A stretch of 64,000 bases of DNA from Mangrovivirga cuniculi (GTDB taxonomy: Bacteria > Bacteroidota > Bacteroidia > Cytophagales > Cyclobacteriaceae): positions 4,404,001 to 4,468,000 of the forward strand of contig NZ_CP028923.1 of the NCBI RefSeq assembly GCF_005166025.1. Reading direction: 5' to 3'. Below are positions 6,179 to 54,557 of this stretch, piece by piece. The notes under the pieces were generated by a model. That model was not told the origin of the DNA, did not search any database, and worked only from the letters and a program-made list of their open reading frames with translations. The position numbers were made by a program, and so were the translations under genes. Each line of letters begins with the position of its first letter. Within the stretch, counting starts at the first letter, position 1.

Positions 6179-7407
6179 ATGAAAATCGTTAGTCAATTAA
6201 TATTAATTCTATTCCCGATATTGATTAGTGCTCAATATCCTGAATCAGGAATAAAAATAAGAACTATAACAGCGGGTATAAATCTGGAAGATATTAACGA
6301 TACTGAATCAATTGATAAAGCAGTTGAATTTCTCAACAGAGCCAGAGAAAAATATACCGTTGCAGGCTACGAAGTTCAAACTATAAGAATTGCTACTCAA
6401 AATTTTCATTTGTATGCTGAGCCCACTATCGCAGCCAATATTATTTATTTAAAGAAAATTGATGCCCTTGCAAAAAAATATAATGTCGAAATTTCGATCG
6501 GGCAGATATTACCTCCTGATACTTACAGCCAGGAAGCTTCTTTGCTAGCAATTAAAATTATAAATAATACAGAACGGATTAATTTTAGTATTCCAATTTC
6601 ATCAAAGGAATCTGGTGTAATGCCAAAGTCCATACAGGCAGCAGCAGAGACAATTATGGCAATCGCTCAAAATTCTGAACGAGGAATTGGAAATTTCAGG
6701 TTTACCGCATCTGCCAATGTTCCTCCCGGAACACCATTTTTCCCAGCGGCTTATCATGAAGGTGAAAATAACTTCAGTATAGGATTGGAGTCTCCAAATG
6801 CCCTGAAAAAATCACTGACCAAAGGATGGTTTGACGAACGATCAAAGGAAATATTAAAAAATGATCTGGACAGCCTTTTTAAACCCATTGAAAATGTTGC
6901 CATTGATATAGATGAAACATTCGATGGCTACAAATATCATGGAATTGATACCTCTCCGGCACCAGGGCTTGACGCAAGTATCGGTGATGCTATTGAAGAA
7001 CTCAGTGGATCTCCTTTTGGTGAACCGTCAACCTTAAGAGCTTGCTCTATGATCACCGATGTATTAAAATCTATTGATGTAAAAAATGTGGATACTCAGG
7101 ACTTATGCTGCCTGTTTTAGAAGATAAAACATTGGCAAAAAGAGCAATGGAAGGAAGATATGATGTACACGAATTGTTATTATATTCAGCAGTGTCCGGA
7201 ACGGGATTGGATGTTATTCCATTACCGGGCAACATTCCAATGCAAAAAATCACAGGCTTACTCAATGATATTGCAGCTCTGTCATTAAAATATGAAGATA
7301 AAGCGCTCTCAGCAAGACTATTTTTAATCCCTGGTAAAGAAAAAGGATACTATTTCTATTCTGACAACCCCTATTTAACGGGGTGTACAATTATGAATTT
7401 AGATTAA
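6179..7407 (+). pseudogene. Exported DUF711 (UPF0210-like) protein, split by a frameshift
   Basis: The first frame (6179-7120) encodes a signal peptide (to about residue 19, ISAQ) and a DUF711 protein beginning KIRTITAGINLEDIN. The second frame (7105-7407) carries the conserved C-terminal block MLPVLEDKTLAKRA and SAVSGTGLDVIPLPGN. At the A6 run 7081-7086 a shift of -1 joins them as VKKCGYSGLMLPVLED, which is the family's expected sequence. The restored product would be about 409 residues. The zero-phase sequence there is gtA-AAA-AAT, a slippery heptamer, but an assembly deletion of one A is simpler. DUF711 has no assigned reaction; the export signal is unusual for the family, which is normally cytoplasmic. 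Its stop overlaps the convergent TetR gene's stop. Confidence 0.75.
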
Positions 7408-8033
7408 TTTTCTGATTGAATATAGACTTTACTGAATCCCTCTTTGCCTTTTTTTGTGAGATAAGGCCTGATTATGCTAAAAAATAATTGCATATAATAT
7501 TCAACCTTGTCTTCTTCTTTACCCGAATAGAACACTTCCGCATCAGATATCCATGAATTGCTTACCATAAGCATTGAGTGAATCAACATTTCCCTCTGCT
7601 TGTCACTTGTGAATTCAATCATATATCCATTTTCTTTCAGGAATTCTGCTAAGACAATTAAAATATTTCTACGATCGTTATTTTGCTGTATAGCATGATT
7701 TTTTATGTGATCAAAATGACGGATAACTTTTGTTATTCCCAGATAAATAAATTTGTACTTATACATAACAGAAAAAAGTACTTTTAGCCTGTCCAGTACA
7801 AAATCAAAATTCATAACCTCCTCACGGATCAGATTAAATTCTTTATCAACCTCTTCCTGCATTTTAAGGTACAATTCCAGGACTATATCATCTTTCTTAG
7901 GAAAGTGATAACATAGGTTACCATAGCTGATTCCCATATTTTCAGCAATAGTCTTAGAAGAAACTGAACTTATTCCCTTTTGGTTGAACAAGACAAGAGA
8001 AGTTTCTAATATTTTATTGCGGGTTTCAGACAT
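7404..8033 (-). CDS. TetR/AcrR-family transcriptional regulator
   Basis: This 209-residue protein has a TetR N-terminal domain at residues 5-50 (RNKILETSLVLFNQKGISSV, then TIAENMGISYGNLCYHFPKKDDI), giving the typical helix-turn-helix followed by YHFPKK. The C-terminal ligand domain resembles the TetR_C region of Bacteroidota regulators. It is transcribed away from a transglutaminase-like gene. The 99-bp gap between them holds two near-identical palindromes (8050-8067 and 8092-8109) that are the obvious operators for both genes. It probably represses both promoters and is released by an unknown small ligand. Confidence 0.9.
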   Translation of the reverse strand: MSETRNKILETSLVLFNQKGISSVSSKTIAENMGISYGNLCYHFPKKDDIVLELYLKMQEEVDKEFNLIREEVMNFDFVLDRLKVLFSVMYKYKFIYLGITKVIRHFDHIKNHAIQQNNDRRNILIVLAEFLKENGYMIEFTSDKQREMLIHSMLMVSNSWISDAEVFYSGKEEDKVEYYMQLFFSIIRPYLTKKGKEGFSKVYIQSEN

Positions 8034-8049
8034 ACAATTCAGTTATTTT

Positions 8050-8067
8050 TTAGGCATTTTTGCCTAA
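8050..8067. promoter_or_regulatory. Palindromic operator 1 between tetR-like gene and transglutaminase-like gene
   Basis: The site reads TTAGGCA-TTTT-TGCCTAA, a perfect 7-bp inverted repeat with a 4-bp spacer. A near copy lies 42 bp away centre to centre. It sits 17 bp upstream of the TetR-type start codon, the usual place for autorepression. Confidence 0.7.
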
Positions 8068-8091
8068 TATATAAATTTTTAATTATATTCG

Positions 8092-8109
8092 TTAGGCATT
8101 AAGGCCTAA
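8092..8109. promoter_or_regulatory. Palindromic operator 2 between tetR-like gene and transglutaminase-like gene
   Basis: The site reads TTAGGC-ATTAAG-GCCTAA, with the same half-sites as operator 1 and 18 bp overall. It lies 24 bp upstream of the transglutaminase-like start and directly follows a promoter-like TATATTCG box (8085-8092), so a bound repressor would cover the transcription start. Confidence 0.7.
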
Positions 8110-8132
8110 TCAGAGATAAAAACAACGCTTTT

Positions 8133-8786
8133 ATGGCATCAAATGAGCTATCTAAATACCTAAAACCAGGGATTTACATCGATTCCGATCATCCTGCTAT
8201 AACTAATTATATTGAAAAGCATACTGCAGGTATACCTGGCATAAAAAACAAAATAACTACACTATTTTATGCCGTCAGAGATGAATTCAGATATGATCCA
8301 TATCAGCTTGATTTTTCGAAAGAAGCAATTAAAGCAAGTCATCTTACCACTCGAAATTATGGTTATTGTATAGAAAAAAGCAACTTGTTCACAGCCTGTG
8401 CGCGTGCCATGGGAATTCCGGCCAGGATGGGGTTTGCTAATGTTCGCAATCATATCGGAACCGAAAAACTTGAAAAAATTTTAAAAACCAATTTACTGGT
8501 ATTTCACGGATATTCTGAAATTTACCTGGAGGATAAATGGTTAAAGGTAACCCCGGTTTTTAACAAAGAGTTATGTGACAAACTTCATGTCGAACCATTA
8601 GATTTTGATGCCACAGGAGATGCAATCTTTCAGCAATACAATAAAAAGGGTAGTAAATTCATGGAATACCTTCATAATTATGGAACATTTGAAGATATCC
8701 CGTATGATTTATTATTAAGCGAGTTAGCCAGGCATTATCCTCATTTAAAGGAAGAAATAATCAACAGAACTGAATTGATTCTCTAA
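8133..8786 (+). CDS. Transglutaminase-like cysteine protease/peptidase-fold protein
   Basis: This 217-residue cytoplasmic protein belongs to the transglutaminase-like superfamily. The nucleophile region is NYGYCIEKSNLFTACARAMG with Cys79, followed by GIPARMGFANVRNH, and the His region is LVFHGYSEIYL with His125, then KWLKVTPVFN and a conserved FDATGDAIFQQYNKKG tail. These match a family of small bacterial transglutaminase-domain proteins whose substrate is unknown. It is divergent from a TetR-type regulator and shares an intergenic region with two operators, so it is probably inducible by the regulator's ligand. It is followed by 115 bp without a gene. Confidence 0.8.
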   Translation: MASNELSKYLKPGIYIDSDHPAITNYIEKHTAGIPGIKNKITTLFYAVRDEFRYDPYQLDFSKEAIKASHLTTRNYGYCIEKSNLFTACARAMGIPARMGFANVRNHIGTEKLEKILKTNLLVFHGYSEIYLEDKWLKVTPVFNKELCDKLHVEPLDFDATGDAIFQQYNKKGSKFMEYLHNYGTFEDIPYDLLLSELARHYPHLKEEIINRTELIL

Positions 8787-8901
8787 CAATAAGCTGAATT
8801 ATTAATCCTTTTCACTAACTTAAATAACCTCGGGTAGTACTCATTAAAAGTATTATCTGCTTTTTATTACGATCTGAATTTAGTTCATAAAGCTTAGTGA
8901 A

Positions 8902-9726
8902 ATGAAAACTTACCTCTACTTACTTCTTTTCCTGATATTTATTTCGTGTGAAGAAAAATCAGAACCAGAAAAGTCAATTCAAATAGAAACATCCAAATCC
9001 ACCAGCTTTATAGAGGGAAAAAAAATTATTGATCTTACTCATGACTTTTCAGAAAAGACTATTTTCTGGGTTACTGCTAAAGAATTCGAACTACAAGAAG
9101 TTGCTAAAGGGATGACAGACCAGGGCTATTACTATAGTGCTAATAATTTTTGTATGGCTGAACATGGAGGTACACATATCGATGCACCGATCCATTTTGC
9201 AAAGGGTAAAAATACAGTATCTGAGATCCCGCTAGAAAGCCTGATCGGAAATAGCATTAAAGTGGATGTATCAGAAAAAGCTTTATCTGACCCCGATTAT
9301 TTAATTACGATCGATGATTTTAAAAATTGGGAAAATAAAAATGGTGAGATCCCTGAAGGAAGCATTATTCTTTTGCACACCGGATATTCTCAATTCTACC
9401 CTGATCCGGAAAAATACCTTGGCACCTCAGAAAGAGGATCTCAGGCTGTTAAAAAGCTACATTTTCCCGGCCTTTCAACTGAAGCTGCCTCCTGGCTTGT
9501 TGAAAACAGAAACATTAAAGCGATTGGTATTGATACACCAAGTATAGACTATGGCCAATCGGAATTATTTAAGGCCCATGTAATACTACTTGAAGAAAAC
9601 ATTCCAGTATTCGAAAATGTATCCCGGACTGATGAACTCCCAGCTAATAATTTTCAAATTATAGCACTTCCAATGAAAATAAAAGGAGGAAGTGGGGGAC
9701 CATTGAGGATAATAGCCCTTATTTAG
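8902..9726 (+). CDS. Cyclase-family (kynurenine formamidase-like) lipoprotein
   Basis: This 274-residue protein begins with a lipoprotein signal peptide (LFLIFISC, lipidated Cys16), so it is predicted to be anchored in the envelope. From about residue 40 it matches the metal-dependent cyclase/amidohydrolase family: KIIDLTHDFSEKTIFW, the metal-binding HGGTHIDAPIHF near residue 90, GSIILLHTGYSQFY, and AIGIDTPSIDYG. Related enzymes hydrolyse N-formylkynurenine or isatin. The lipoprotein form is common in Bacteroidota and its substrate is not known. It stands alone, with short untranslated gaps on both sides. Confidence 0.85.
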   Translation: MKTYLYLLLFLIFISCEEKSEPEKSIQIETSKSTSFIEGKKIIDLTHDFSEKTIFWVTAKEFELQEVAKGMTDQGYYYSANNFCMAEHGGTHIDAPIHFAKGKNTVSEIPLESLIGNSIKVDVSEKALSDPDYLITIDDFKNWENKNGEIPEGSIILLHTGYSQFYPDPEKYLGTSERGSQAVKKLHFPGLSTEAASWLVENRNIKAIGIDTPSIDYGQSELFKAHVILLEENIPVFENVSRTDELPANNFQIIALPMKIKGGSGGPLRIIALI

Positions 9727-9802
9727 CTGTTTATTAAGGAGATATTCTAGCGTAGTTCCTATTTTTTTAAGAACTTATAATAGGTCACCAATAAACCCTA
9801 TT

Positions 9803-11607
9803 ATGAAAGTTCCTGTATTTTCCAGCCTTATATTTCTTGTTGCGATTTTCATCATTCCGTCGAGTTTTGCACAGGATGCAAATAAAAAAACCTATTGCAA
9901 TCCTATAGATATTGATTATTCCTATATGTCGCATTATCGGGCCAGAACTGATGTTTCTTATCGTTCGGGAGCCGATCCGGCGATAGTAAATTTCAAAGGA
10001 AAGTATTACCTGTTTGTGACTCGTTCTCATGGTTATTGGGTTTCTGAGGATATGAGCTCCTGGAAATTTATCAAACCGGTAGCCTGGTATTTCAAAGGTT
10101 CTAATGCCCCAGCTGCAGCTGTGTATAAAGATAAGATTATCGTTTATGGTGATCCTTCAGGTCGAGGTCCGGTAATAGAAACTGCAACTCCCGAGATTGG
10201 TGACTGGAAAACGAATTACGCAGTGCTTAATCCTCCGGGAGGAATACAGGACCCCTGCCTTTTTGTGGACGATGATGGAAAAGTTTATTTGTATGAAGAA
10301 TCATCTAATAAATGGCCAATTCGAGGGGTTGAACTTGATCCTGACAATTACTTTGTCCCGATGGGTAAAGAAACAGATCTGTTTAATCTTGACCCGGACA
10401 AACATGGCTGGGAAAGATTTGGCCAGGACCACAAGTCAGATATTGATCCATATATAGAAGGGCCATGGATGATGAAACACGGTGATACCTATTATCTTGA
10501 GTACGGTGCGCCTGGCACCCAATGGAATGTGTATGCAGATGGCGTCTATACCAGTAAAAATCCTTTAGGTCCTTTTGAATACGCTCCCTACAATCCTATT
10601 TCATATAAGCCGGGAGGATTTCTTAAGGGATCCGGACACGGTAGTACTGTGAGAGATAACAATGGAAATTACTGGCATTTCGCGACTATGGCCATATCAG
10701 TAAATTATAAATTCGAACGTCGAATCGGGATGTATCCGGCAGGATTTGAATCAAATGGCCAAATGTATGTAAATACTGCATATGGTGATTATCCTCACTA
10801 TCTTCCGGACACCAAAGTTGAAAGCCACAAGAACCGATTTACCGGATGGATGCTTTTATCTTACAACAAGCCTGTACAAACTAATTCACCATTAGTAAAA
10901 AAGATATTCATGTCGTTGATGAAAGTAGTTCAGGCTACATGCTGGAACAAATCACTGATTTTAATATCAAAAGAATAAACGATGAGGAAATCAGGTCATA
11001 CTGGGTATCCGAATCAAATCATGATTCTATTTATGTGACTTTAGACCTTAAAAATAAAATGATTATTAAGGCAGTGCAGATAAACTTCCAGGACTTTAAC
11101 AGTAAAATTTTTGGTCGACCGGACACTTTAAAGCATCAATTCACTATTAAAACATCAATAGATGGCAAAAACTGGACGACTGCAGCAGACTATTCAAACA
11201 ACCAAAAAGATATGCCTCATGCTTATATAGAATTAAACCAACCTGTAGAAGCCCGCTATGTAAAATATGACCATATCTATTGCACTAATGAATATCTTTC
11301 CATCTCAGAGTTCAGGGTTTTTGGAAAAGGACAAAAAAAGGCTCCGAAAACACCAAAGAACTTTAATATTGTCAGGCAGGATGATCGGAGAAATGCAGAC
11401 CTAACCTGGGATCCTGTTAAAGGAGCTATGGGATATGTTATCTATTGGGGTATAGAACCTGATAAATTAAATCTCTCGGTTTTGATGTATGATGAAAATA
11501 ATTATGAACTAAGAGCATTAAATACAGATCAGGAATACTACTACCAGGTAGAAGCATTTAGTGAAAATGGTATATCTGAAAGGACAGACATAAAGCATAC
11601 GAAGTGA
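9803..11607 (+). pseudogene. Secreted family 43 glycoside hydrolase with F5/8C and Fn3 domains, split by a frameshift
   Basis: The first frame (9803-10978) has a signal peptide (SSFAQ) and a five-bladed GH43-type propeller with the likely acid pair Asp in GADPAIV and GGIQDPCLFVDDDG and Glu in YIEGPWMM. The second frame (10939-11607) continues with an F5/8-type C (discoidin-like) module (AVQINFQDF, EARYVKYDHIYC, ISEFRVFG) and an Fn3 domain (DLTWDPVKGAMGYVIYWG). At the A6 run 10897-10902 (phase gtA-AAA-AAG), a -1 shift joins them as VKKDIHVVDESSSGYMLEQ, giving about 601 residues. The family cleaves arabinose- or xylose-containing or galactan chains; the precise substrate cannot be read from sequence. 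Confidence 0.8.
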
Positions 11608-11736
11608 AAATATTGAACTCCAGGTAACCGAATCGGCTTAAAATTGAATTTCAGGAAATAAAAGTCAACTAATTAGGATAAAACATAAACCATTGTTTAT
11701 TAGTAATACTATCAGTGTAACTCACTAAATAATGCT

Positions 11737-12273: not shown

Positions 12274-12363
12274 TCAGGTAATTAGCTCTTAAACTTATTG
12301 TAGATTAAAAAAAATAATCTTATTTTTAATCATTCTAAATAAAGTCAACCAAACACAATACAA

Positions 12364-13041: not shown

Positions 13042-13060
13042 CCCGGGTCAATCTATCGAT

Positions 13061-13091
13061 TTGTAATAATGGGGATTAATTTCTTATCTTA
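13061..13091 (+). promoter_or_regulatory. Candidate Bacteroidota-type promoter for the CocE/NonD hydrolase gene
   Basis: A TTG at 13061-13063 is followed after 20 bases by TATCTTAA (13084-13091), a six-of-eight match to the TAnnTTTG box. It lies 22 bases upstream of the start codon at 13114. This is a motif match only. Confidence 0.3.
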
Positions 13092-24622: not shown

Positions 24623-27001
24623 TTATTGAACTAATTCCCCCTTTGGTGTATAGTATTCCGGGCTATCGATCAAACTACCGTAGTGATATTTATAAACTGC
24701 TTTAATCTGCCCATTACTATAATAATATGTCTCTTGACCATGTTTAAAACCATCTTTGTAGGTCACTGAGTACCTAAGAGAACCATCACTATAGTACTCT
24801 TTATCCTCACCTATCTGCACCCCTTTGTCAAATTCTCTTTTAATTTCAATTTGGCCGTTAGCATAATAATACTCCAGGTCACCATCTAGCTCGCCATTAA
24901 TAAAGGTTTGTTTACAAGATAAATTTCCATTTGCGAAGTAAGCAACTAAGCTGTCATTCCCATTATTTAACGAAAACCAATCAGTGTATTCACCATTTTT
25001 TTTCAGGTAGCGATAGCTTGCGGGGATATCCTCATTAAACATTTTTTCCATTTGAAGCTCACCGCTAGCAGAAAAATACTTAACTACTCCTTGAGTAAGA
25101 TTATCTCTATAAGGATAGATTCGATCTATTTCGCCGTTTGAATGATAATATGTAACAGTTCCATTCAAATCACCTCTTTGAAATTCTCTCTCTACATATA
25201 AATTCCCGTCAATGTCAAAAAATTGCCATTTACCCTGAAATTTTCCATTTACATATTTTCCTGATTCTCTCTTTTTCCCGTTAGCATGATATTCTTTATA
25301 ATCACCCCAAATCTTTCCGTACTTAACAGGAAAATGCCTTTTCACCTTTCCATTTTCGTGATATAATATCACATCTTCGACATATTCCCCACCTCGAAGA
25401 GTCGTTGTTCTCGAAACATTACCGTTGTTGTAAACTGAATTAATCTTTCCACTACCCAGATCAAGTAATTGTTTTTGATAAAGATTTCCTTCAGCATCAT
25501 ATTTTTCTATGGTGGTTAATAAACCATTTGAATAATGCTCAACTGACCTCAGCCTACCCTTATAATCATAATCTTTCGATTCGCCATTTAATTTCCCATT
25601 GAGAAAATATTTCTCAGATTCAATGGTACCATCAGGGTAATACTCCTTCCACAATTGTTGTTGAACATCCTCTAAAAACCATCCCTCTAGTTTGATATTA
25701 CCATTTTCAAAGTATTCTTTATAAAGGCCATCTGTAACTCCATCAGAATATATAACTTCAACTTTTACGTTGCCATTTGGATGGTAGTCATAAGCAAGTC
25801 CATGCTTTTTACCTTTCCTGTAATTTGTCAGACTTGAAAGATATCCTGCTTTGCTATAGGTTTTAAATTCACCCGATTTTAGACCGTTTTTAATTCTACC
25901 TTCCTCAAATCTAAAACTATCAGGATAAAATGATCTGTATTCATATGAAGCCTTACCCTCAGGACTTGATGATAATACTTCACCTTCCTGATTATAATAA
26001 ATATATGAAGTCAGTTTTTCTCCATCGAGAGTATATTCTGTATGCTTATTTCCTTTTTTGTCATAGCTTATTATTTTATTAAGCTCTCCTTCTTCATTAT
26101 AAAATTCCTCTTCTTCAAGTTCTCCTTCACTGTAATATTCCTTCCAGACACCTACTCTTTTGTCTTCTTTAAATTCACCCTCATTAGATAATGTGCCATT
26201 AAAATGTCTCCATTCCCAATGTCCTTCAGCTTTACCTCCGACATATTGACCTTTTTCATATACTTTCCCGTTGATGAAAATATCTTCATAAAGACCATCT
26301 CTCTCGCCTTCTGAAAAATTGATTTTTTGATATAATGAACCATCATTAAAATAGTAAGTGAATTTCCCATCTAGCTCACCTTCTTTGTAAGTATATTCAT
26401 AATATTTTTCCCCAGTGACATAATATCCTCTACCTGGCCCATCCTCTCTTCCTGCTGTATATGAGATCTCCTCCTTTAAATAACCTGAAGGGTAAAAGAT
26501 CTTTAGCTTACCATCCAGTTCGCCATTTTTGAAAACCACTTCATTTTTAACCTTACCATTTTCATAATAGAATTTTGCGGGTCCATGACGCTGGCCTTCT
26601 TCATTATATGATTCGATTTTCATTAATTGGCCATCAGGATAATAATATGTCCATTTACCTACCTTCTCTCCATCATTATTAAAGTTACCTATTGCATTGA
26701 GTTGTTGATTAGAATAGTAATATTCCCATGGACCAACCGGATCCTCATTTGAATTTTCGTTGCCAATAGCATTAAGAGAATTATTATCAAAAAACCATGA
26801 AGAATAAACATCTTCTTTCCCGTTAACAATGGCTTTCCTGTACATTCTGAGTTTGGAAAGCTCATCGTACGCGAAAGCATAAAATTCCTTTGTAAAATCT
26901 TTGTTCTTTTTAAGGTATTTTTTTACATCCTTAATATCAGTAGAGGCTAGCAGTGTATAAATAAATGGCTCAGAAAACTCTCTTTTTGAACAAAAGTATA
27001 A
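24623..27001 (-). CDS. YwqK/MORN-repeat region of a TPR-MORN protein (C-terminal part)
   Basis: The frame is open from 27001 to the stop at 24623; the first Met is at 26845, giving 740 residues from there. It consists almost wholly of about 30 repeats of roughly 22-24 residues of the toxin-antitoxin YwqK type (examples: GPWEYYYSNQQLNAIG, VGKWTYYYPDGQL, HGPAKFYYENGKVKNEV, GLYKEYFENGNIKLEG, GKWQFFDIDGNLYVER, HGQETYYYSNGQIKA). These form beta-solenoid-like surfaces. Another 52 codons in frame upstream (SEPFIYTLLASTDIKD, KKNKDFTKEFYAFAYDE) join it to the preceding TPR gene by a one-base shift, so the intact protein is probably about 1073 residues. It is exported with the DUF3857 proteins and may scaffold or bind their substrate. 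Confidence 0.85.
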   Translation of the reverse strand, partial: LYFCSKREFSEPFIYTLLASTDIKDVKKYLKKNKDFTKEFYAFAYDELSKLRMYRKAIVNGKEDVYSSWFFDNNSLNAIGNENSNEDPVGPWEYYYSNQQLNAIGNFNNDGEKVGKWTYYYPDGQLMKIESYNEEGQRHGPAKFYYENGKVKNEVVFKNGELDGKLKIFYPSGYLKEEISYTAGREDGPGRGYYVTGEKYYEYTYKEGELDGKFTYYFNDGSLYQKINFSEGERDGLYEDIFINGKVYEKGQYVGGKAEGHWEWRHFNGTLSNEGEFKEDKRVGVWKEYYSEGELEEEEFYNEEGELNKIISYDKKGNKHTEYTLDGEKLTSYIYYNQEGEVLSSSPEGKASYEYRSFYPDSFRFEEGRIKNGLKSGEFKTYSKAGYLSSLTNYRKGKKHGLAYDYHPNGNVKVEVIYSDGVTDGLYKEYFENGNIKLEGWFLEDVQQQLWKEYYPDGTIESEKYFLNGKLNGESKDYDYKGRLRSVEHYSNGLLTTIEKYDAEGNLYQKQLLDLGSGKINSVYNNGNVSRTTTLRGGEYVEDVILYHENGKVKRHFPVKYGKIWGDYKEYHANGKKRESGKYVNGKFQGKWQFFDIDGNLYVEREFQRGDLNGTVTYYHSNGEIDRIYPYRDNLTQGVVKYFSASGELQMEKMFNEDIPASYRYLKKNGEYTDWFSLNNGNDSLVAYFANGNLSCKQTFINGELDGDLEYYYANGQIEIKREFDKGVQIGEDKEYYSDGSLRYSVTYKDGFKHGQETYYYSNGQIKAVYKYHYGSLIDSPEYYTPKGELVQ

Positions 27002-27843
27002 AAGGGCACATAAAAATCCATCCAGAAATCTCCGGTCCCCTTTTTATATTCAAGCATTTCAAGAATTAGTTCAGATTGTTGAACCACTGGCGCTTCTACT
27101 TTTATATTTGATTTAAAGTCATCTTTCAGTGCAGCCCTCGAATTAATTATTAGGTCTAATTCTTTAAAAGCGGAGTTATCTAATTTATAATCTATTTCTC
27201 CATACTCATCGGCATTGCCTAATAAAATATTGTTAAGGATTACCAATATCTGATTGTTCCCCGGATTAATAGCCAAATACGTACCAAATGATAAGAATGC
27301 CTTAGTAGACATCTGCCTTTTGACTGCGATTTCACCTAGATAGAGATGCGAATTTGAATGAAAAGGATTTATATAAAGAGCTTCCTGAAAATTTTTAATC
27401 GCCTCTTCATAGTTTTCCTGATGATAAAGTGTAACACCAAGATTATAATGTAAGCTTGCATGATAGGGGAATTCTTCTAACCCTTTTTTATAATAAAAAA
27501 TTGCCGAATCAGCATTACCATTTTCATCAAAAGCTGTACCTATTAGATTAAAAGCCATCGCCTTATTTTCAGTCCCTTTCTTTAAGATGGATTTAATCAG
27601 AGTTATACTCTCTTTGTATTTTTCTAAGGCTACAAGCGAATTTGCTTTTTCAATTAAAGCTGTATAATAAGTAGTGTCTCCAGGATTAACCTGCTCAAAA
27701 AGGCTAATAGCCTCTTCATATTTTTCTTCGTCATGCAATTGGATTCCAGCCTCAATCAAACTATCTCCATTGATTAATTTAACCTGAGCATTGATAAAAA
27801 CATTTACAAAAACGAATGCTGATAAAACAAAAAATCGAAACAT
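26947..27843 (-). CDS. Exported TPR protein, N-terminal part of the TPR-MORN protein
   Basis: Started at the ATG at 27843 this is 298 residues, with a signal peptide (NVFINAQ) and about five tetratricopeptide repeats (IEAGIQLHDEEKYEEAISLFEQ, KGLEEFPYHASLHYNLGVTLYHQ, ALYINPFHSNSHLYLGEIAV). An earlier Met (27888) adds 15 residues before the signal sequence and is not supported. The frame ends oddly after WMDFYVPFYTFVQ. At the T4 run on the coding strand (plus-strand A4, 27000-27003), adding one T continues as VPFLYFCSKREFSEPF, entering the MORN-repeat frame. The gene is divergent from the YwbE gene. Confidence 0.8.
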   Translation of the reverse strand: MFRFFVLSAFVFVNVFINAQVKLINGDSLIEAGIQLHDEEKYEEAISLFEQVNPGDTTYYTALIEKANSLVALEKYKESITLIKSILKKGTENKAMAFNLIGTAFDENGNADSAIFYYKKGLEEFPYHASLHYNLGVTLYHQENYEEAIKNFQEALYINPFHSNSHLYLGEIAVKRQMSTKAFLSFGTYLAINPGNNQILVILNNILLGNADEYGEIDYKLDNSAFKELDLIINSRAALKDDFKSNIKVEAPVVQQSELILEMLEYKKGTGDFWMDFYVPFYTFVQKESFLSHLFIHC

Positions 27844-28051
27844 AGTTAATAATATTTTTTCGAAAAAAATGACTCTAAAATAATACAATTTTGATATTGA
27901 TATGAAAAAATGTAAGAATACAATTAAGAATCAAAAATTAATTAACCCCAAGAATGTGAAGTTCAAACTATAAGAGGTTTAATGGTTTATTTAAGGTTAT
28001 CTTTAATTGTAAGTTTTTATCTATTTATAAATAAGCAACCAAAGAATTATT

Positions 28052-28445: not shown

Positions 28446-29617
28446 ATGGAAATATTCAAAACAAAAGACTTTGAAAGACTTTCGGATGTACATAAACCAT
28501 TTTGTGTAAGTATTTACATTCCAACCCATAGAATAAGCACACCGGGTCAGGAAATGGATGAAGATAGAATAGAATTAAAGAATCAATTACAAGATGCCAG
28601 AGATCAATTGATCATACACGGCATGAAAGAAAGTGAAGCTGAACCATATCTTGAGCCGATTTCTAAATTATTAGATAATAATGAATTCTGGAATTATCAA
28701 TCTGATGGCCTTGCCATTTTTTACAATGGTAAAGAGGTAGAAACCTTTCACATTCCAATTGAATTTAAAAGTTATGCATATGTAAGTGAAAGATATTATT
28801 TATTACCACTAGCAGGAATGCTTCATGATTCTAGTACTCATTTTATTCTCGAACTTTCATTAGATCATGTGAAACTTTATGAGGCGACCAGATATACTAT
28901 TGCTGAAGTAGGCATCAGTCATTTAGTACCTACTCAACTAGAAGATGCTGTAGGTTACGATTATGAACAAAAACAGCTCGGAAGAAGATCTAACCAGGGA
29001 GAAACAGGAGATGCTGAAGGACTGTATCACGGGCATGGTTCAGGAAATGAAACAGAAAAAAAGAAGAGGCATTTAAATATTTCAGACAGATCAATGAAGG
29101 TCTTATGAAATTATTAAATGATGAAGATAAACCAATGATAGTCGCCTGTGTAGACTACTTATATCCTATTTACAGAGATGCCAACGATTATCAGTATTTA
29201 ATGAATGAACATATTGAAGGTAATTTCTGCGATGAAGATTTATTAACCTTGAAGGAAAAAGCCTGGAATGTGATGAAGCCACAGGTCGAATCGACTCGTG
29301 CGAGTGCAAAAGAAAAATATAAAGCTCAATTAAATGAAGGAAAATCCGCTCCTTCACCCGAAACCGTGATACCGGCTTCCATGGCAGGAAGAACTGAAAC
29401 CTTGTTTGTCAAAAAAGATTCTCACTTGTGGGGTAAGTATAAATTAAAAGAACATTCTATTGAAATTAATCAGGTCAGAAAAGTAGGCGATGCCGATCTC
29501 CTTAATCTGGCAGCAATAGAAACAATTAAGCATAACGGTAAAGTGTATGTAATCAATGAAGACGAGATGCCGGATAATACAAGCGTAGTAAATGGAGTTT
29601 TCAGATACGCCAGATAA
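28446..29617 (+). pseudogene. baeRF-type (bacterial eRF1-like) protein, split by a frameshift
   Basis: The first frame (28446-29108) and the second (29105-29617) together make one protein of about 390 residues. The N-terminal part contains PFCVSIYIPTHRISTPGQEM and LAIFYNGKEVETFHIP, characteristic of bacterial aeRF1-related (baeRF) proteins. The C-terminal part has MIVACVDYLYPIYRDAN and ends with NTSVVNGVFRYAR. The break is at the A7 run 29056-29062 (phase gaA-AAA-AAG). A -1 shift gives EKKEEAFKYFRQINEGLMK. The families are inferred to act on ribosomes; a role in stalling or hibernation is a hypothesis, not shown here. Confidence 0.75.
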
Positions 29618-42162: not shown

Positions 42163-42312
42163 TTATTTATTACCACTATTTAATTTTTTCATTAGTTTGA
42201 TCAGTGCTTGCTGACGACTCTTGTTTTCTTCCTGAATCGCATCGAGCAATTTCTCTTCGGGAGTTTCATTATTATCCCCGGAATTCTTCTTCCTGCCTTC
42301 GCTTTTACTCAT
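42163..42312 (-). CDS. Small highly charged protein (49 residues), unknown function
   Basis: An ATG at 42312 opens a 49-codon frame ending at TAA (42163-42165), reading MSKSEGRKKNSGDNNETPEE and continuing to QALIKLMKKLNSGNK. It is rich in Lys, Glu and Asn with a helical C-terminus. It sits 18 bp upstream of the S8 protease start at 42144 and on the same strand, so it may be translated from the same transcript. Coding status is judged only from the clean frame, position and composition. Confidence 0.5.
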   Translation of the reverse strand: MSKSEGRKKNSGDNNETPEEKLLDAIQEENKSRQQALIKLMKKLNSGNK

Positions 42313-42614: not shown

Positions 42615-44284
42615 TTAAATGGTTGACAAAAAATCCACGAGATTGACTTCAGAGTTGGTTAATCCGAATTTCTTTCTTAACCTGGTTCTTGCTACATCAA
42701 TACTACGAATTGACTGACCTGTTAAGGATGAAATTTCTTTGCTTGTCATATTTAATTTAAGAAAAGCACATAGCTTTCTTTCGTTGGGGGTAAGATCAGG
42801 ATATTTAGATTCGAGTGAATTATAAAAATCCTGATGCACTTCGGTAAACCTTAACTCAAATTCTTTCCATGAATCTTCATTCAAAGCAACACCAAGATTT
42901 TTTATGACTTTTCGGACGATCGGTTTATTTTCTGATTTAAGATTTTTAATGAGTTTCTTTAATTCTTGAATCACATCATCGATCAACTCATTCTTTTGAA
43001 GAGATATAAAAGCTTGGTAGACATTTCCTTTGTCTTGTGTTCAAGTTCCAGACTAAGATTTTTCTTTTCCAGCTTCCACGATTTTTGCCTCAATTCAAGA
43101 GTTTCGGCTTTTAACCGGGCGGCTTTAACCCGGTGACGCTGAAAAAGAGTCAACAGAATTAAAATCAAGATCAACGCTATTAGAGCACCTAAAATGAGGT
43201 ACATCCTAAATTCTCTGCGCTTCTGTTCAGCTTCTGACTTTAGTTGCTCCTTATCATATTGGTATTGACTTTCAATTTTGGCCAGCTCTGACACCCTCCG
43301 TTCATTATAAAGACTATCATTTAACAGTTTATACTCCTTAAAATGATCCAATGCCATTTCAGGTTGGCCAATCGATTCATAAACTTTTGCTAATCCTTCC
43401 TTGGAGTCAACATGTTCTTTTAAACTACCGACTTTCTTAGCAGCATCAATACTTTGATTAAAATACATTATAGCTGAATCAGGCTTTCCAGACTTAAAAT
43501 AGAAAAAACCCAGATTTCTATATGATTGAGCCAGACTTTTATATCCTTTTAATCTTTTCCTGATTTGTAGTGCTGAATTCAAATTTTCAAAAGCCCTGTC
43601 AAAATCTCCCTGGTATAAATTAGTATTTCCAATATTATTTAGGATCATGGAAATTAGTGGCTCGCTATTTACAGCCCGGGCATGCACGAGTGCCTTATCA
43701 TAATAGTCGAGCATCAGCGTAGTATCACCACGATTGCCATATATATTAGCTAGATTGTTATTTATATTGGCAAGAAAAATCAGTTTTCTTGGGAATCCGT
43801 CCGCCATTTTTTCATCGGCTTCCTTTATTACTTCAATAGCTTTTTGATAATAGCCTTCCGCTTTATCAAAAGATGACTGCCGGTCGTGAACTGTACCAAT
43901 ATTGACTAAAAAAGTGGCTTCATAAACCGGATTCTGCATTTTTTCTGCATATCGCAGCCCTTCGATAAGATTTTCTATGGATTTATCATATAATCCTTTC
44001 TGATTGTAAGCTGTACCAAGCAAATCGTAAATTCTGGCTTTCAGGGAATCATTTGCATTTTCAGAGATATCAAGTGCAGTCTGACCATACATGATCGAAG
44101 TATCCAGACTCGTTGACTGATAACTAACTCCCAAATATATAAGAGTATTTATCCTTTCATCCGTTGAAATATCAGAAGATAAAACCGATCGTAAGCTATC
44201 AATCTTTTCTTTTGAATCTCCCTGGGCAAGAGATAAAAAGTATGAATAGAATAAACAAATATATAGAAATGCATGTTTCCCCAT
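42615..44284 (-). pseudogene. TPR-HTH (LuxR-like) transcriptional regulator, split by a frameshift
   Basis: The first frame (44284-42983) encodes a signal or anchor segment, about six tetratricopeptide repeats, a membrane helix (YLILGALIALILILILLTL, about 350-370) and a coiled coil. The second (42986-42615) encodes a LuxR-like helix-turn-helix (TPNERKLCAFLKLNMTSKEI, SIRSIDVARTRLRKKFGL). At the A4 run on the coding strand (plus 42994-42997) a -1 shift gives LYLFKKNELIDDVIQ, the expected continuous protein of about 556 residues. Such proteins link an extracytoplasmic TPR domain to a cytoplasmic DNA-binding end. It faces the TonB receptor gene across 85 bp and lies upstream of the S8 protease locus; either may be a target. 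Confidence 0.8.
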
Positions 44285-46546: not shown

Positions 46547-47313
46547 ATGGAAAATCAACCTCAATTTGATCTAAAAGGAAAAACTGCAATTGTGACTGGC
46601 GCAAGCAAAGGAATTGGTCGTGCTATAGCCGAATCATTAGCTAAAAATGGCGCTAACGTAGTTGTTTCCAGCAGGAAACAGGAAGCTGTAGATGAAGTCG
46701 CTGAAAATATAGTTAAAGCAGGTGCTAATGCCATTGGCATAGCAGCACACGTTGGCACTAGTGACGACGTCCATAAACTAATCAACCAAACACTCGAAAA
46801 ATATAATTCAATAGATATTATTGTAAACAATGCAGCAATAAACCCAACCTATGGACCAATCCAGGATTCTACTGAAGATGTTTTGATAAAGTAATGAAGG
46901 TAAACGTTTATGGACCAATGGAATTAGCAAAACTGGCATATCCGTCGATGAAAGAAAACGGTGGTGGGTCAATTATTAATATCGCTAGTATTGAAGGAAA
47001 AACGCCTAGTACAGGTCTTGGTTTGTACAGTGTTTCTAAAGCAGCCATGATTTCTATGACTAAAGTTCTTGCCAGGGAATGGGGAAGAGATAATATTCGT
47101 GCCAATGTTATCCTGCCTGGATTAGTGCAAACAAAATTCAGTCAGGCATTAATAAATGACGAAAAAACTTTAAAAGGAGTCATGTATAAACAGGCATTAA
47201 GCAAGTTAGCCGAACCCGATGACATCTCCGGCCTGGCATTATTCCTGGCATCTGAAGCATCATCATTTTGTACCGGAGCTGAATTTACGGCAGATGGTGG
47301 CTTTACTATTTAA
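46547..47313 (+). pseudogene. Short-chain dehydrogenase/reductase (lvaD-like), split by a frameshift
   Basis: The first frame (46547-46894) has the nucleotide-binding motif TAIVTGASKGIGRAIAESLA and NNAAINPTYGP. The second (46894-47313) has the catalytic triad region, Ser in INIASIEG and Tyr-Lys in YSVSKAAM, followed by RANVILPGLVQTKF and TGAEFTADGGFTI. A missing T in the run 46881-46884 accounts for the break: with five T the frame reads DVFDKVMKVNVYGPM and gives a normal 255-residue SDR. It is the first gene of an SDR-ACAD-kinase operon and resembles LvaD, which reduces 4-oxo-acyl-CoA to 4-hydroxyacyl-CoA. The substrate is inferred from context. Confidence 0.82.
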
Positions 47314-47322
47314 TAGAAATAA

Positions 47323-48527
47323 ATGATAGAAATATATTCATCTGAGAGGTTGAAAAAAATCCTTCCGAAAGTTCAATCTTTTGTCAATGACGAATTATTA
47401 CCGATTGAAAACAAGTTATTGACTACATCATTTTTTGAATTAGAACCTATTCTCCAGGAAAAACGAAATATTGCAAAAGAAATGGGGATATGGGCTCCCT
47501 ACTTACCCGAAGAAGAAGGAGGAAGTGGACTTTCACTTACAGAATTTGCCCAGGTCAGTGAAATTCTCGCCTGGACTCTTTATGGCCATTATTGCCTTAA
47601 TTGCCAGGCTCCTGATGTTGGTAATATCGAATTATTATCAGATCATGGAACAAATGAACAAAAAGAAAAATTCCTTAAGCCTCTTATAAACGGAAATATC
47701 AGGAGTTGTTTTTCAATGACGGAGCCTGATAATGCAGGATCAAATCCGGTAATCATGGATACTCGTGCCGAAAAAATAACGATAAGTATATCATAAATGG
47801 CAAAAAATGGTTCACCACCGGCGCTGATGGCGCATCTTTTGCAATAGTAATGGCAATAACTGACCCCGGGGCAGGTAACTATCAAAAGGCAAGCATGATC
47901 ATAGTTCCGACAAATAATCCCGGTTTTAAGAGAGTCAGAAACACACCTATTATGGGAGAATCGGGTCAAGGGCATGATAGTCATTCTGAGATCAATTATG
48001 ACAATTGCAAAGTACCGGTTGAAAATATCATCGGAAAAGAAGGAGAAGGATTTTACCTGGCACAGCAACGACTAGGTCCGGGAAGGGTTCATCATTGCAT
48101 GCGATGGATCGGCACCGCTGAAAGAGCACTCGATATGATGTGTAAAAGAGCTGCCGGAAGATCTCTGGGAGCAGATACTTTACTGGCACACAAACAAACA
48201 GTCCAGAACTGGATCGCTGAAAGCAGGGCCTCAATCGATGCATGCAGGCTAATGGTTTTAAATGCAGCTCACATGCTTGAAACCGTCGGATCAAAAACTG
48301 CCCGAAATGATATATCAGCGATTAAATTCTATGTCGCTAACATGCTTCAGGAAGTTTTGGATAAAGCAATACAGGTACATGGGGCATACGGTCTCACCGA
48401 TGACTGCATTCTATCTCACTGGTACAGACATGAACGAGCTGCCCGCATTTATGATGGGCCCGATGAGGTCCACAAATCATCACTGGCAAGACAAATTTTA
48501 AAAAATTACGGAGTTAATAAGAAATAA
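47323..48527 (+). pseudogene. Acyl-CoA dehydrogenase family protein (ACAD11/LvaC-like), split by a frameshift
   Basis: The first frame (47323-47796) has the N-terminal ACAD region (GIWAPYLPEEEGGSGLSLTEFAQV, CFSMTEPDNAGSNP). The second (47850-48527) has MAITDPGAGNYQKASMIIVP, GEGFYLAQQRLGPGRVHHCMRW and HGAYGLTDDCILSHWYRHERAARIYDGPDEVH. A single missing A in the run 47771-47776 explains the split: restored, the link reads AEKNNDKYIINGKKWFTTGADG, giving about 401 residues. RHERAARIYDGPDEVH is characteristic of the ACAD10/11 and LvaC clade, which acts on phosphorylated 4-hydroxyacyl-CoA. It lies 10 bp after the SDR and 1 bp before the kinase. Confidence 0.85.
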
Positions 48528-48528
48528 A

Positions 48529-49590: not shown

Positions 49591-49610
49591 GTTAGAATTT
49601 AACTTAATTC

Positions 49611-49618
49611 TATATTTG
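49611..49618 (+). promoter_or_regulatory. Promoter-like TATATTTG box upstream of the YihY gene
   Basis: TATATTTG is a perfect TAnnTTTG match, 13 bases upstream of the start at 49632, implying a very short leader. No good upstream TTG was found at the usual distance. Confidence 0.4.
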
Positions 49619-49631
49619 AGTAAATTAACCT

Positions 49632-50585
49632 ATGGCTGAAAAATTCAAACTAAAAGATATTTTCAAGTTACTCAAACTGACATATCACGAATGGATGAAA
49701 GATGATGCTTTCGCCAAAGCCGCGGCTGTAGCTTATTATGCAGTCTTCGCACTACCCGGTTTTCTTTTATTGATACTTTACTTTACAGGCTTATTTATTG
49801 AAGAAGAAACGATAACTGGAGAAATCACTGCTCAGATATCCAGTATGATAGGTCCAAAAGCTGCTAAAACTATAGAAACTATTCTAATGAAATCGAAGCT
49901 TGAAGATCAATCTTTTTCCGGAGCTGCAATCAGTATCGGTTCATTATTATTTGGTGCAACCGGACTATTTTTTCAATTACAAAAATCATTAAACAGTATC
50001 TGGGAAGTTGAGAAAAAACCCGAAGCAGGCATATTAAGGATGCTTCTGGACAGAGCTACATCTTTAGGGATTATCATTATTGTGGGTATTTTAATGTTGA
50101 TATCATTAGTACTATCCGCAACAATCAGTATTCTGTCAGACTGGCTTTCGGATACCTTTGGTTCAGATCTTATGTTTTTTACTGTTTCAGGTGAATTTCT
50201 GCTTTCCTTGTTTATACTAACATTACTCTTTGCTACAATTTTCAAAGTTCTTCCGGATGTCGAAATAAGATGGAAAACTGTCTGGATAGGAGCAATTATA
50301 ACTGCATTACTTTTCTCTCTTGGAAAATGGTTGATAGCATTATATATCAGTAATGTAAACCCTGATTCTAATTTTGGTGCTGGAGGAGCTATAATACTTT
50401 TCTTACTGTGGGTCTCCTATTCCTGCCTGATTATATTCTTTGGAGCTGAGTTTACACAGGTCTTCTCGGAAAATTATGGGTATAAATTTAAACCTTCCGA
50501 ACATGCTCAGCGAACCGCTGAATATAAACTGAGAAATCATCATAAATATGAAGATATTAACATAGCACAGAAAGATCAAAAATAA
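49632..50585 (+). CDS. YihY/BrkB-family inner membrane protein
   Basis: This 317-residue integral membrane protein has six predicted helices and the family signature near the N-terminus: AAAVAYYAVFALPGFLLLILYF. Later blocks are GAAISIGSLLFGATGLFFQLQKSLNSIWEVE, ILTLLFATIFKVLPDVEIRWKTVWIGAIITALLFSLGKW and the C-terminal SNFGAGGAIILFLLWVSYSCLIIFFGAEFTQVF. These are diagnostic for YihY/BrkB proteins, once misannotated as RNase BN; their function is unsettled. It is preceded by its own promoter-like box, so it is likely a separate transcript from the lva-like operon. Confidence 0.92.
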   Translation: MAEKFKLKDIFKLLKLTYHEWMKDDAFAKAAAVAYYAVFALPGFLLLILYFTGLFIEEETITGEITAQISSMIGPKAAKTIETILMKSKLEDQSFSGAAISIGSLLFGATGLFFQLQKSLNSIWEVEKKPEAGILRMLLDRATSLGIIIIVGILMLISLVLSATISILSDWLSDTFGSDLMFFTVSGEFLLSLFILTLLFATIFKVLPDVEIRWKTVWIGAIITALLFSLGKWLIALYISNVNPDSNFGAGGAIILFLLWVSYSCLIIFFGAEFTQVFSENYGYKFKPSEHAQRTAEYKLRNHHKYEDINIAQKDQK

Positions 50586-51108
50586 ATGAAGTGCTTTTAT
50601 TGATATCAAAATTTTAAATTTTAAATCCGTCGTAAATACTTCACAATTACAATTAAAAAAATTGTTACTATTATTAGCCATCATGTGTGCTGCAATTGCA
50701 CTACAACCACCCTTCCAGCAATGTAAATAATAGTTTTTATACTTATCTAGTTCATCAATCTATTCTCTGATATCATTTCCCATGATTGAATTGGCAAGGA
50801 GCCTTTGGTAATATTCTGATTCTGTTTTGACATCAGGAACGATACTACCACTAACATTTTAAAGCTCTTTCACCAATTCCAGGGGGAGGCAAAATTGGTA
50901 TATAGAGCCATTGTTGATTTGAAATCTATTCCCTCAATAATATAAAATACTTATTAAATCAATTAATAGAAAAACCTCACCATAATAAGCTTTAATAGTT
51001 ATTAACTACACTATAATTCTAACACCACTTTATTTATAATATTTATTTCAACAACATACTTTATTAAATATTTTATTATATTAGATTAATGAATAATATT
51101 TTTAATTA
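50586..51108. other. Intergenic stretch (523 bases), mostly non-coding
   Basis: This stretch between the YihY gene and the GxGYxYP-like gene is AT-rich. Apart from the minus-strand remnant at 50760-50936 I see no gene, RNA or mobile element. The last 150 bases are especially AT-rich and would be the promoter region of the gene at 51109. Confidence 0.5.
50760..50936 (-). pseudogene. Possible remnant of a degraded exported or peptidase gene
   Basis: On the minus strand one frame reads GNRFQINNGSIYQFCLPLEL, a TAA stop (50859-50861), then NVSGSIVPDVKTESEYYQRL and LANSIMGNDIRE before a final stop at 50760-50762. The composition is protein-like, and GSIVPDV with the preceding LPLEL resembles the end of S41-type C-terminal peptidases. 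A stop lies immediately upstream and the rest of the gene is missing. This could be a decayed gene end or chance. Confidence 0.3.
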
Positions 51109-53151
51109 ATGAAGCAAATAATACTCCTTATACTTATCACCTGGTTCTCTTTAAATATTCATTCACAAACGCATTATGTATTTGATGGCACAGGAAAACC
51201 ACGAAGTGAAAAATTAGCAGCAATGACTGTAGCAGGCCTGGTTAACAGAGATGAACCTAAATTATTTCTGAAAAATGTATTTGAAACCTGGAGCTATAAT
51301 CAAACAGATGAAAAGTGGATAGAAATTTTTGAACAAAATGAAGGTGTTTCCTTTGAGGAGTTAACCAAAATTCAAGATTTATTTACAGTTTTCGAAAATC
51401 AGATAAACGGGGGAATATTTTATAACGATACAGAATGGTACTCTAATTTTCCCGGCCAAAGTATTTTGTGGCAGGGAGAATTCGCTGCAATGCTAGGCGG
51501 ATTATCAAATAGAATTCCGGTACCACTAGATAAAGCTGCTAACTGGGGTTTTCAAGTTGACAATGAGGTTATCTTAACAGGAGTTGAAGGTAATAATTTT
51601 GTTATGAATCCTGACCTTACTCTTAAAAAGTGGCCATGGAATGATTCTACACTTGATGACCGGTATATGTCACTTTTAAATTGGGGGATTGATAACATTC
51701 TTCCTCTTTGCAATCGAAAAAGCTTTTTCATCAGGGAGATAACGGATTGGGCTATTTCACAAAAAATGTTTCAGGTAGATATTGCCGGGGATGTTGCCGG
51801 GTCACCTGATTTCTATACCTTACCAGAAAATAAAGCAGAATTACTTGAACGATTATTTTCGCATTTTAAGTCCAATAACCCGAATAAATTATTTAATATT
51901 TATGGCTGGATGCAACCAGAGCCTCTTGTTCAGTGGTTCTCTATGAATGGTGCAACCTTTCATGAATCGATGCAGGCAAATTTATCCTGGTTTCACTCAT
52001 TTCCTGCCCCTCAGGCTCCAGAAAGAGCGTCACTTGTCGACCCACAAGATCTAACGCTGCAAAAAAAATACTATATTTTATTTATCAGTTCGGAAGGAGA
52101 TGCGGGGAACTGGAATACTGGTTTTCAGGCTGGTGCCTGGCATTCACCGCAACGTGGAAAGTTACCAATTGGCTGGGGATTCAACCTTCATTTTTTTGAG
52201 ACATTTCCCTATCTTGGATATTATTATAATTCAACCGCTACTGAAAATGATGGATTTATATCTGTCATTTCTCCTCTAGGCTATACTTATGGTGATGTTC
52301 TTCCTGAGAACACACTTGAACATGCAAAATCATTATCTGCCAGCAGAGTTGGTGAATTCAATATCAAAACTGCATATGCGTATAAACATTATAACGGACA
52401 GGGGGAATCTGATTACAGGGGATTCACTATTTCGAACAGCTACAAGGTTACCAAAATGGTTGATTTTTATGGTGCATCAAATATCGAAACAACATTTTTT
52501 TTCGAACCTCAATATCCCAGCCAGACTGCTTACGACCGTGATGTGACAACCATTTTCAATCATGTAAATGACAATACATTTTATGGCAACATAACAAATC
52601 TGAATGCTAAAGCTGAAGAAATCTTAAGCAGATTGAAACAACGGGAACCTCCTTATTTTTATCTTGCAGGATATCAACGGTTGGTTAGCGAAAACCCGGG
52701 ATATACTGGAAATGCAGATGTGTCATTAACCGAGCTAAAACGAGTTATTGAACTTATAAAGGCAGACCCTAAAATAGGAGATGCTATAGAAGTAGTAACT
52801 CCTGAAAAATTCAATATTCTATTAAACGCAAATCTTGGTAAAATCAATATCCCTACTGATCCCACAGATTTTATTTTATCCTCAGAATCTGAAACTCTTT
52901 TTTCTAATCTGGATATAATTAATAGAAAGAATACTCTTGAGATAATATATGCTTCAAATACTCAGGTTACCGATGATATAATCATTTATTCTGTTGATGG
53001 CAAAACTATTTATCCAACAGCGAAATTCACTTCTCCCGAAAGTCGTGTTACTAGTATACAGATTTCTACAACGTTATTATCAAAGGGTGTATATATATTG
53101 AAAATCCCAACAAATAAAGGTATCGTTAGTGAAAAGTTCATTAAGCAATAA
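51109..53151 (+). CDS. GxGYxYP-like putative glycoside hydrolase with T9SS sorting domain
   Basis: This 680-residue protein has a signal peptide (FSLNIHSQ) and matches GxGYxYP-family proteins: RSEKLAAMTVAGLVNRDEPKLFL near the start, and SSEGDAGNWNTGFQAGAWHSPQRGKLPIGWGFNLHFFETFPYLGYYY in the centre. The signature Gly-x-Gly-Tyr-x-Tyr-Pro is altered to PLGYTYGD, so it is a divergent member. The C-terminus (about 595-680) is a T9SS sorting domain (YSVDGKTIYPTAKF, GVYILKIPTNKGIVSEKFIKQ). It is expected on the cell surface or outside; the glycan target is unknown. Confidence 0.82.
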   Translation: MKQIILLILITWFSLNIHSQTHYVFDGTGKPRSEKLAAMTVAGLVNRDEPKLFLKNVFETWSYNQTDEKWIEIFEQNEGVSFEELTKIQDLFTVFENQINGGIFYNDTEWYSNFPGQSILWQGEFAAMLGGLSNRIPVPLDKAANWGFQVDNEVILTGVEGNNFVMNPDLTLKKWPWNDSTLDDRYMSLLNWGIDNILPLCNRKSFFIREITDWAISQKMFQVDIAGDVAGSPDFYTLPENKAELLERLFSHFKSNNPNKLFNIYGWMQPEPLVQWFSMNGATFHESMQANLSWFHSFPAPQAPERASLVDPQDLTLQKKYYILFISSEGDAGNWNTGFQAGAWHSPQRGKLPIGWGFNLHFFETFPYLGYYYNSTATENDGFISVISPLGYTYGDVLPENTLEHAKSLSASRVGEFNIKTAYAYKHYNGQGESDYRGFTISNSYKVTKMVDFYGASNIETTFFFEPQYPSQTAYDRDVTTIFNHVNDNTFYGNITNLNAKAEEILSRLKQREPPYFYLAGYQRLVSENPGYTGNADVSLTELKRVIELIKADPKIGDAIEVVTPEKFNILLNANLGKINIPTDPTDFILSSESETLFSNLDIINRKNTLEIIYASNTQVTDDIIIYSVDGKTIYPTAKFTSPESRVTSIQISTTLLSKGVYILKIPTNKGIVSEKFIKQ

Positions 53152-53316
53152 ACTATAGAAGTTGGCTCTTATTTCAGTTACACCGATGAAATAGGTTACA
53201 TATCAAAATTTCAATATACAGTTATTGGAATAGAAAGCAGCTCTATATTTAATCGGAGACTATAATCAATCGAGTTTTATTAGTAATTTAAATAACAAAA
53301 CACTCCGATTGATACA

Positions 53317-54557
53317 ATGAAATACAAATTAACATCGATCACCTTTCTCCTAATAATTATAATCCTATCCTGCTCCAGGGAAAAAGAAAGTAGTGATCAG
53401 CTATTGTCAGACTCTACAAAAGTAAATGCGACATACACCTACCTATCTGATGATGGCATGTATCTGTATGAACTAAATACCCTCAAAGGAGAAAAAAAGA
53501 TAAAGTGATTTTAGTTGAGCGGAATTTTGGTAAAAAGTATTCCCTGAATAAATCTCAATCAGCAAATGGCATTGAATACAGAAGTGATGAGGGGCACCGA
53601 TTTTTAACTTTGGGTGATGAGTTTATCTTTTATCAGGTAAACGAAAAATTATCTTCTGGAAAATTGGTCAAGACAAATCCTGAAGTGGTCAGAAACCCCA
53701 AAAACACAATATATGGCACCTACGTTAGTACGGGTTATCAAAATAAATCTAAAGGAAATGATTGGGTAGCAATTACACTTACCCCAATAAAAGAAAATAA
53801 AATAATGATGTCAGTCAGATCCAGAGCAGACCGAAAAAAGCCAACCTGTACATTTGATGGCCAGTTGGAAATTACTGGGCGCAATCAGCTTAAATTATAT
53901 GAAGATGGGCTTGATGTCACAATCAAAGTTGATGGAGATAGCTTAACAATACTCCCTCAAAATAAAAAATCAGCAGATCGACTCCACTTTTATTGTAGTG
54001 GCGGGGCCTCCTTAAGCGGAGATTATAGTAAAATAGAAGGAAAAGCTGATTCAAGCCAGATTGACAAGACCCAATTCAGCAAATTTCTCAATTATGGTGA
54101 CTATGCTTATTCCGTTACTTTAAAAAATGATACTCTAAGAGTTTTTCCTCTTGGTATTGAATTAAATGAAATGTTTGAAATACATATTCGGGGAGACATT
54201 AAAAAAGCTGAAGTTGGGGATTTAAATAAAGACGGATATCCGGAATTGATTGTAGTTGAAGTGACCAGGAAAACAAATAATTTTAAAAAAATTCACGGGT
54301 ATTCGATCAATAACGGTAAGTCTTTTAGTATGACTGGTGAACTTCCGGACATTACTGATGTCGATTCAATTTCTTACGGTTATCAGGGTGAAGATGAATT
54401 TTCGATAGTTGAAAATTCATTAGTGAGAAGATTCCCAGTTTACCAGGAAAACAATGAGGGATATAATCCGACCGGGTTGATGAGGCAGATACAATATAAA
54501 CTTGTTGATGGCGAGGCGTTACGACAATTTAAAATCGATAAGGTTGTAGAATATTAA
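53317..54557 (+). pseudogene. Lipoprotein with FG-GAP-like motif, split by a frameshift
   Basis: The first frame (53317-53508) has a lipoprotein signal peptide (LIIIILSC) and a short mature part. The second (53505-54557) continues with ILVERNFGKKYSLNKSQSAN, a strand-rich region (GTYVSTGYQNKSKGNDWVAI) and AEVGDLNKDGYPELIVVEV, a calcium-loop motif of the FG-GAP type. At the A7 run 53492-53498 (phase gaA-AAA-AAG) a -1 shift joins them as KGEKKDKVILVERNFG, about 413 residues. I do not recognise a family beyond this. A strong terminator follows directly after the stop. Confidence 0.75.

Follow-up and report, generated by a model that had tools for sequence, protein, structure and literature searches.

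Eight frameshifted genes in a 64-kb stretch of the Mangrovivirga cuniculi R1DC9 genome are almost certainly errors of the deposited assembly

Within positions 4,404,001-4,468,000 of the single 4,661,901-base contig that makes up the genome of Mangrovivirga cuniculi R1DC9 (G000), eight protein-coding genes are each interrupted by a -1 frameshift at or beside a short run of A or T. In the following, the window denotes this whole stretch of 64,000 bases; positions of up to five digits are counted from its start and longer ones along the contig. A first-pass annotation had listed the eight breaks and had preferred homopolymer deletions in long reads over gene decay as their cause. All eight breaks are present, and in each case the syntenic part of a same-genus relative (G001) carries a single uninterrupted open reading frame (ORF). 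We conclude that the breaks are almost certainly consensus errors of the deposited R1DC9 assembly, i.e. a known kind of artefact and not biology. The preference for long-read deletions is thus supported: one-signed breaks linked to runs also occur elsewhere in the genome, the single-copy genes rpoC, rpsC, ilvC and aroA are split, and selection on the broken genes is not relaxed.

The evidence was obtained by aligning five regions of the R1DC9 genome to their G001 counterparts. Most of the window is syntenic with this relative at a DNA identity of ~69-82% per block. The main region spans 364 kb with the window inside it, and 257 kb of this were aligned; the other four comprise 120, 40, 20 and 20 kb (116, 38, 10 and 19 kb aligned). 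The total comparison covered 382 gene rows with 134,880 codons, corresponding to 404.6 kb of aligned coding sequence, to which the window contributed 53.9 kb. A shift was called strict when each flank had 25 or more aligned codons and a residue identity of 60% or higher, and run-associated when it lay within 3 bases of a homopolymer run; random deletions served as the null. The intactness of genes was read from the relatives' own ORFs, and no base was re-inserted into the R1DC9 sequence. For whole-genome family searches a second relative (G002) was used beside G001.

Small indels showed a pronounced excess of one sign, with 33 strict -1 shifts versus 3 strict +1 shifts (sign test, p = 2e-7). 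The main region contained 22 of the -1 shifts, including the 8 in the window, and a further 8, 2 and 1 were found in the 120 kb region, the 40 kb region and the 20 kb region C13, respectively. One-signed, run-associated breaks were hence present in four regions out of five. Overall, there was about one break per 12 kb of aligned coding sequence. The figure was 1 per 6.7 kb inside the window versus 1 per 14 kb elsewhere, a difference that was not significant (p = 0.06). The window contributed 43 aligned gene rows, in which no other strict shifts were found. By extrapolation the deposit may contain several hundred split genes: if about nine-tenths of the genome are coding, the rate corresponds to ~340 broken genes, which is a projected and not a counted number.

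The breaks were strongly associated with homopolymers. Of the 33 strict -1 sites, 29 lay at runs of at least four bases versus 23% under the null (p = 7e-15), and 19 lay at runs of at least five versus 9%. The rule of A or T runs put forward in the first-pass annotation applies to all eight breaks in the window but not elsewhere: 21 of the 29 run-associated events were at A or T runs and 8, all outside the window, at G or C runs. Per run, G or C runs were even struck more often (8 of 29 events versus 722 of 8,995 runs; odds ratio 4.4, p = 0.002). Across the 33 sites both the run base (A, T, G or C) and the run length (2 to 7) vary.

This variation bears on the idea that the DNA is as deposited and that full-length proteins are made because ribosomes shift frame, or transcription slips, at the runs. 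Runs of A are a classic slippery sequence, and five of the eight window breaks coincide with A runs that are 6 or 7 bases long, in genes whose downstream halves are conserved. Slippage would, however, need a common run type, and a shared slippery motif of sufficient length is lacking among the 33 sites. One study reports that bacterial RNA polymerase slips only with at least 7 T and needs more in the case of A (PMC6260861). Two runs of 8 A, starting at 9018 and 52061, lie inside unbroken window genes, which confirms the earlier remark that intact genes carry long A runs. Finally, each of the eight window genes forms a single frame in G001. A rescue of the deposited frames by slippage is therefore most improbable.

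The breaks were furthermore indifferent to gene function, indispensable genes included. The region scan revealed breaks in rpoC, rpsC, aroA, uvrC, ilvC and a MetX-aspartokinase-homoserine dehydrogenase fusion. In the whole-genome family searches the split rpoC, rpsC, ilvC and aroA were the only R1DC9 copies, and all four genes were unbroken in G001 and G002. For rpoC we found frames of 1158 and 304 amino acids (aa) and no other match in the genome, versus a 1438-aa frame in both relatives. The residues of rpsC were identical to those of G001 on either side of the break (71/71 and 165/165). Another match of the aroA search, at 3702762, was far below the cut-off, and both relatives carry an equivalent of it. 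The break in the homoserine dehydrogenase fusion says less, because R1DC9 has another homoserine dehydrogenase gene. Bacteria need both RNA polymerase beta' and ribosomal protein S3 to live. Unless there is an unknown rescue, the DNA of the cultured strain can therefore not be as deposited at rpoC and rpsC. Since a living cell cannot lack either product, gene decay and phase variation both fail as explanations.

Gene decay would mean that the strain is losing genes through small deletions at runs and that the broken genes are true pseudogenes. Such deletions are a common type of mutation, and a bacterium could in principle do without some of the genes hit (GH43, TonB-dependent receptors). Moreover, the gene with the break at 4548344 has two further stops, 68-71 bp from it. 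For rpoC and rpsC the splitting of the only copies already excludes decay in practice, and ilvC and aroA are likewise split in their only copies. The broken genes were also not a set of dispensable genes under relaxed selection. The median ratio of nonsynonymous to synonymous substitution rates (dN/dS) versus G001 was 0.042 for genes with a break (n = 33) and 0.041 for 338 other genes (p = 0.92), and the former do not give the impression of decay. In addition, the 33 events fell in 33 different genes. Nonsense changes were not conspicuous: aligned in-frame stops were present in 18 of the 382 rows for R1DC9 versus 17 rows in the reverse comparison for G001. Gap-placement artefacts accounted for 11 of the 18 (at least 92% covered by one open frame), 4 were rows of 88-149 aa, and 3 were among the 33 broken genes. 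One of these 3 is the gene at 4548344; in the other two, the aligned stop lies 2-3 bp away from the break. Overall, we attach very little weight to decay.

Slipped-strand phase variation, with the sequenced culture caught in 'off' states, would account for single-base changes at runs. Runs of 2-7 bases are, however, short for it, and an 'off' state of rpoC or rpsC would be lethal, which leaves it with hardly any probability. Least credible of all is that the deposited runs are right and that the cell tolerates hundreds of -1 frameshifts, rpoC and rpsC included, by an unknown general recoding.

If the breaks are consensus errors, a base would have been dropped at or beside a homopolymer, either in the PacBio RS II reads or when HGAP.3 derived the consensus from them, and genes that the living strain carries intact would show a -1 shift as a result. 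The missing base would then be a fault of the reads and not of the DNA. Thin coverage or the lack of short-read polishing may have let such errors pass. The R1DC9 genome was produced with PacBio RS II sequencing and HGAP.3 assembly, the sole methods named in the sections of the genome paper concerned, which corresponds to a long-read-only assembly (PMC8489838). Short-read correction is not mentioned there alongside these methods, and the words 'coverage' and 'polish' are absent from the main text of the paper. At several window sites the base that is extra in the relative, as placed by the aligner, differs in kind from the run, such that the lost base may sit beside the run and not inside it.

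Comparable damage has been described for other genomes. According to the Kastor paper, the errors of long reads consist mainly of gene-splitting indels at homopolymers, and in its nanopore data deletions are most frequent after runs of four to five bases (PMC12007338). Its account, including the analysis by Watson and Warr cited there, resembles our data in that frameshift indels at short runs strike many genes and that completeness scores understate the damage. It differs in that the detailed error profile given is for nanopore, whereas PacBio RS II and HGAP.3 were used here. For assemblies of the latter kind, a passage in PMC4853030 notes that frameshifts at long homopolymers need careful examination; the runs in that PacBio case consisted of nine G, whereas those found here are shorter. 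In another report no error was found in one PacBio assembly, whereas in a second one a single base was missing from a homopolymer in chromosome and plasmid (PMC5797582). The type of lesion, a single-base deletion in a run, is the same, but as described there it was far rarer.

A number of observations weigh against assembly errors as the cause of the breaks. An RS II assembly made with HGAP 1.0 is described as having 88 indels, mostly insertions, i.e. of the opposite sign (PMC4223829). Also, the overall rate found here is high, because the errors given in PMC5797582 are so few. As these two reports differ from our data, the sign and the high rate would be features of this data set and not of the platform in general; a literature search found no residual-error figures for such assemblies. 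The run lengths were taken from the deposited sequence and not from raw reads. Completeness is given as 99.98%, and marker counts would therefore have to conceal the damage. The essential genes S9, rpoB and dnaE, picked blind to the outcome, were unbroken, the 20 kb region C6 contained no strict breaks, and 4 of the 33 events lay away from any run of at least four bases. Identity to the relative was 92% before the breaks and slightly lower (89%) after them. Lastly, a strict +1 shift at 4505064, close to the N-terminal end of a divergent lipoprotein-like gene, is without ready explanation. Because of this shift and the extra stops at 4548344, some of the 33 breaks may be real mutations.

As biology the breaks are of low interest, but they provide a useful warning on this type-strain genome: inferences that genes are absent or lost from it are unsafe until it has been resequenced.

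The eight window genes are the following. A DUF711 gene (6179-7407, + strand) is present as pieces 6179-7120 and 7105-7407, with the -1 break at a run of six A at 7081-7086; the uninterrupted G001 ORF has 409 aa. Both pieces match PF05167 separately, at profile positions 7-306 and 322-401. The GH43 gene (9803-11607, + strand), which also encodes F5/8C and fn3 domains, is split into 9803-10978 and 10939-11607 by a -1 break at a run of six A at 10897-10902 (G001 ORF of 599 aa). Its downstream piece bears the F5/8C and fn3 domains, and domains were also assigned in the G001 protein. For the TPR-MORN gene (24623-27888, - strand) we found the pieces 26947-27888 and 24623-26845 plus an upstream frame, versus a G001 ORF of 1088 aa in whose protein TPR and MORN_2 were detected. 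The run positions of the first-pass annotation stand as written for seven of the eight genes, but for this one the break had been placed at 27000-27003. Frame comparison with the relative's protein moves it by ~15-20 bases to ~26980-26987 (a run of five T on the + strand). A gene of the baeRF family (28446-29617, + strand) is broken by a -1 shift at a run of seven A at 29056-29062 into 28446-29108 and 29105-29617, which match consecutive stretches of the same baeRF families; the G001 ORF has 390 aa.

Further downstream, a TPR regulator gene (42615-44284, - strand) consists of pieces 42983-44284 and 42615-42986, with the -1 break at a run of four T at 42994-42997 and a G001 ORF of 556 aa. TPR was found in the G001 protein in agreement with the earlier label TPR-HTH, whereas no HTH family was listed for it. 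A short-chain dehydrogenase (SDR) gene (46547-47313, + strand) is divided into 46547-46894 and 46894-47313 by a -1 break at a run of four T at 46881-46884 (G001 ORF of 255 aa). Its pieces match opposite ends of PF00106/PF13561. Next to it lies an acyl-CoA dehydrogenase (ACAD) gene (47323-48527, + strand) with pieces 47323-47796 and 47850-48527 and the -1 break at a run of six A at 47771-47776. The N- and C-terminal domains PF02771 and PF00441 fall in separate pieces, and the G001 ORF of 420 aa includes a short 5' extension.

Homologues of the ACAD and SDR genes were surveyed in the best 80 of 442 confirmed loci, with the G001 species among the 80. Within this set the ACAD halves were adjacent in 58 loci and in one frame in 55 of these, and the SDR halves were adjacent in 28 loci and in one frame in all 28. 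Three ACAD homologues (L026, L040 and L056) have a stop or a frame change between the halves, possibly due to errors or to the pairing of paralogues.

The last of the eight, a lipoprotein-like gene (53315-54557, + strand, the start being approximate as it was taken from the alignment), has its C-terminal piece at 53505-54557 and the -1 break at a run of seven A at 53492-53498; the G001 ORF has 412 aa. It gave no Pfam match, and the name 'FG-GAP lipoprotein' that it had received is thus not backed by a family assignment.

Several other phase changes were rejected. In the window, those at 42312 and 47313 (4446312 and 4451313; +1) had short or weak flanks, and one at 55652 disappeared once longer flanks were used. 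Outside it, 4333610 and 4355956 (-1) as well as 916636 (+1) were dropped before the count, again for short or weak flanks. Among the strict +1 shifts, the one at 4269741 lies upstream of an intact 250-aa R1DC9 ORF and the one at 931517 within an 88-aa ORF that is probably spurious. At 4505064 the R1DC9 frame starts just past the shift. The reverse comparison (231 + 114 + 34 + 7 + 17 R1DC9 ORF rows) gave 12 phase changes, 3 of which had not already been found. Of these, 4242641 (+1) and 4565449 (-1) fail the strict test, while 4502883 (+1) satisfies it, yet its position is 20 bp upstream of where the G001 start codon maps.

Two details of the published genome description can be added. The genome paper gives the G+C content of R1DC9 as 63.1 mol% in its abstract and as 36.1 mol% in its genome section (PMC8489838). 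In 4-kb steps of the window we obtained 32-40%, and the abstract value looks like a slip. The paper also lists gldK as absent (PMC8489838). A GldK gene above the family cut-off is, however, found at 655727-656701 (L160) as one open frame of 362 aa. Because gldK is present and unbroken, its reported absence is not due to an assembly fault, and an assembly break was rejected as the cause; the search covered gldK and not gldB, gldH or gldI. A weaker GldK-family match at 1156467-1157497, a long way from the window, is split by a further -1 break, not at a long run, into frames of 263 and 134 aa, the G001 counterpart having 365 aa.
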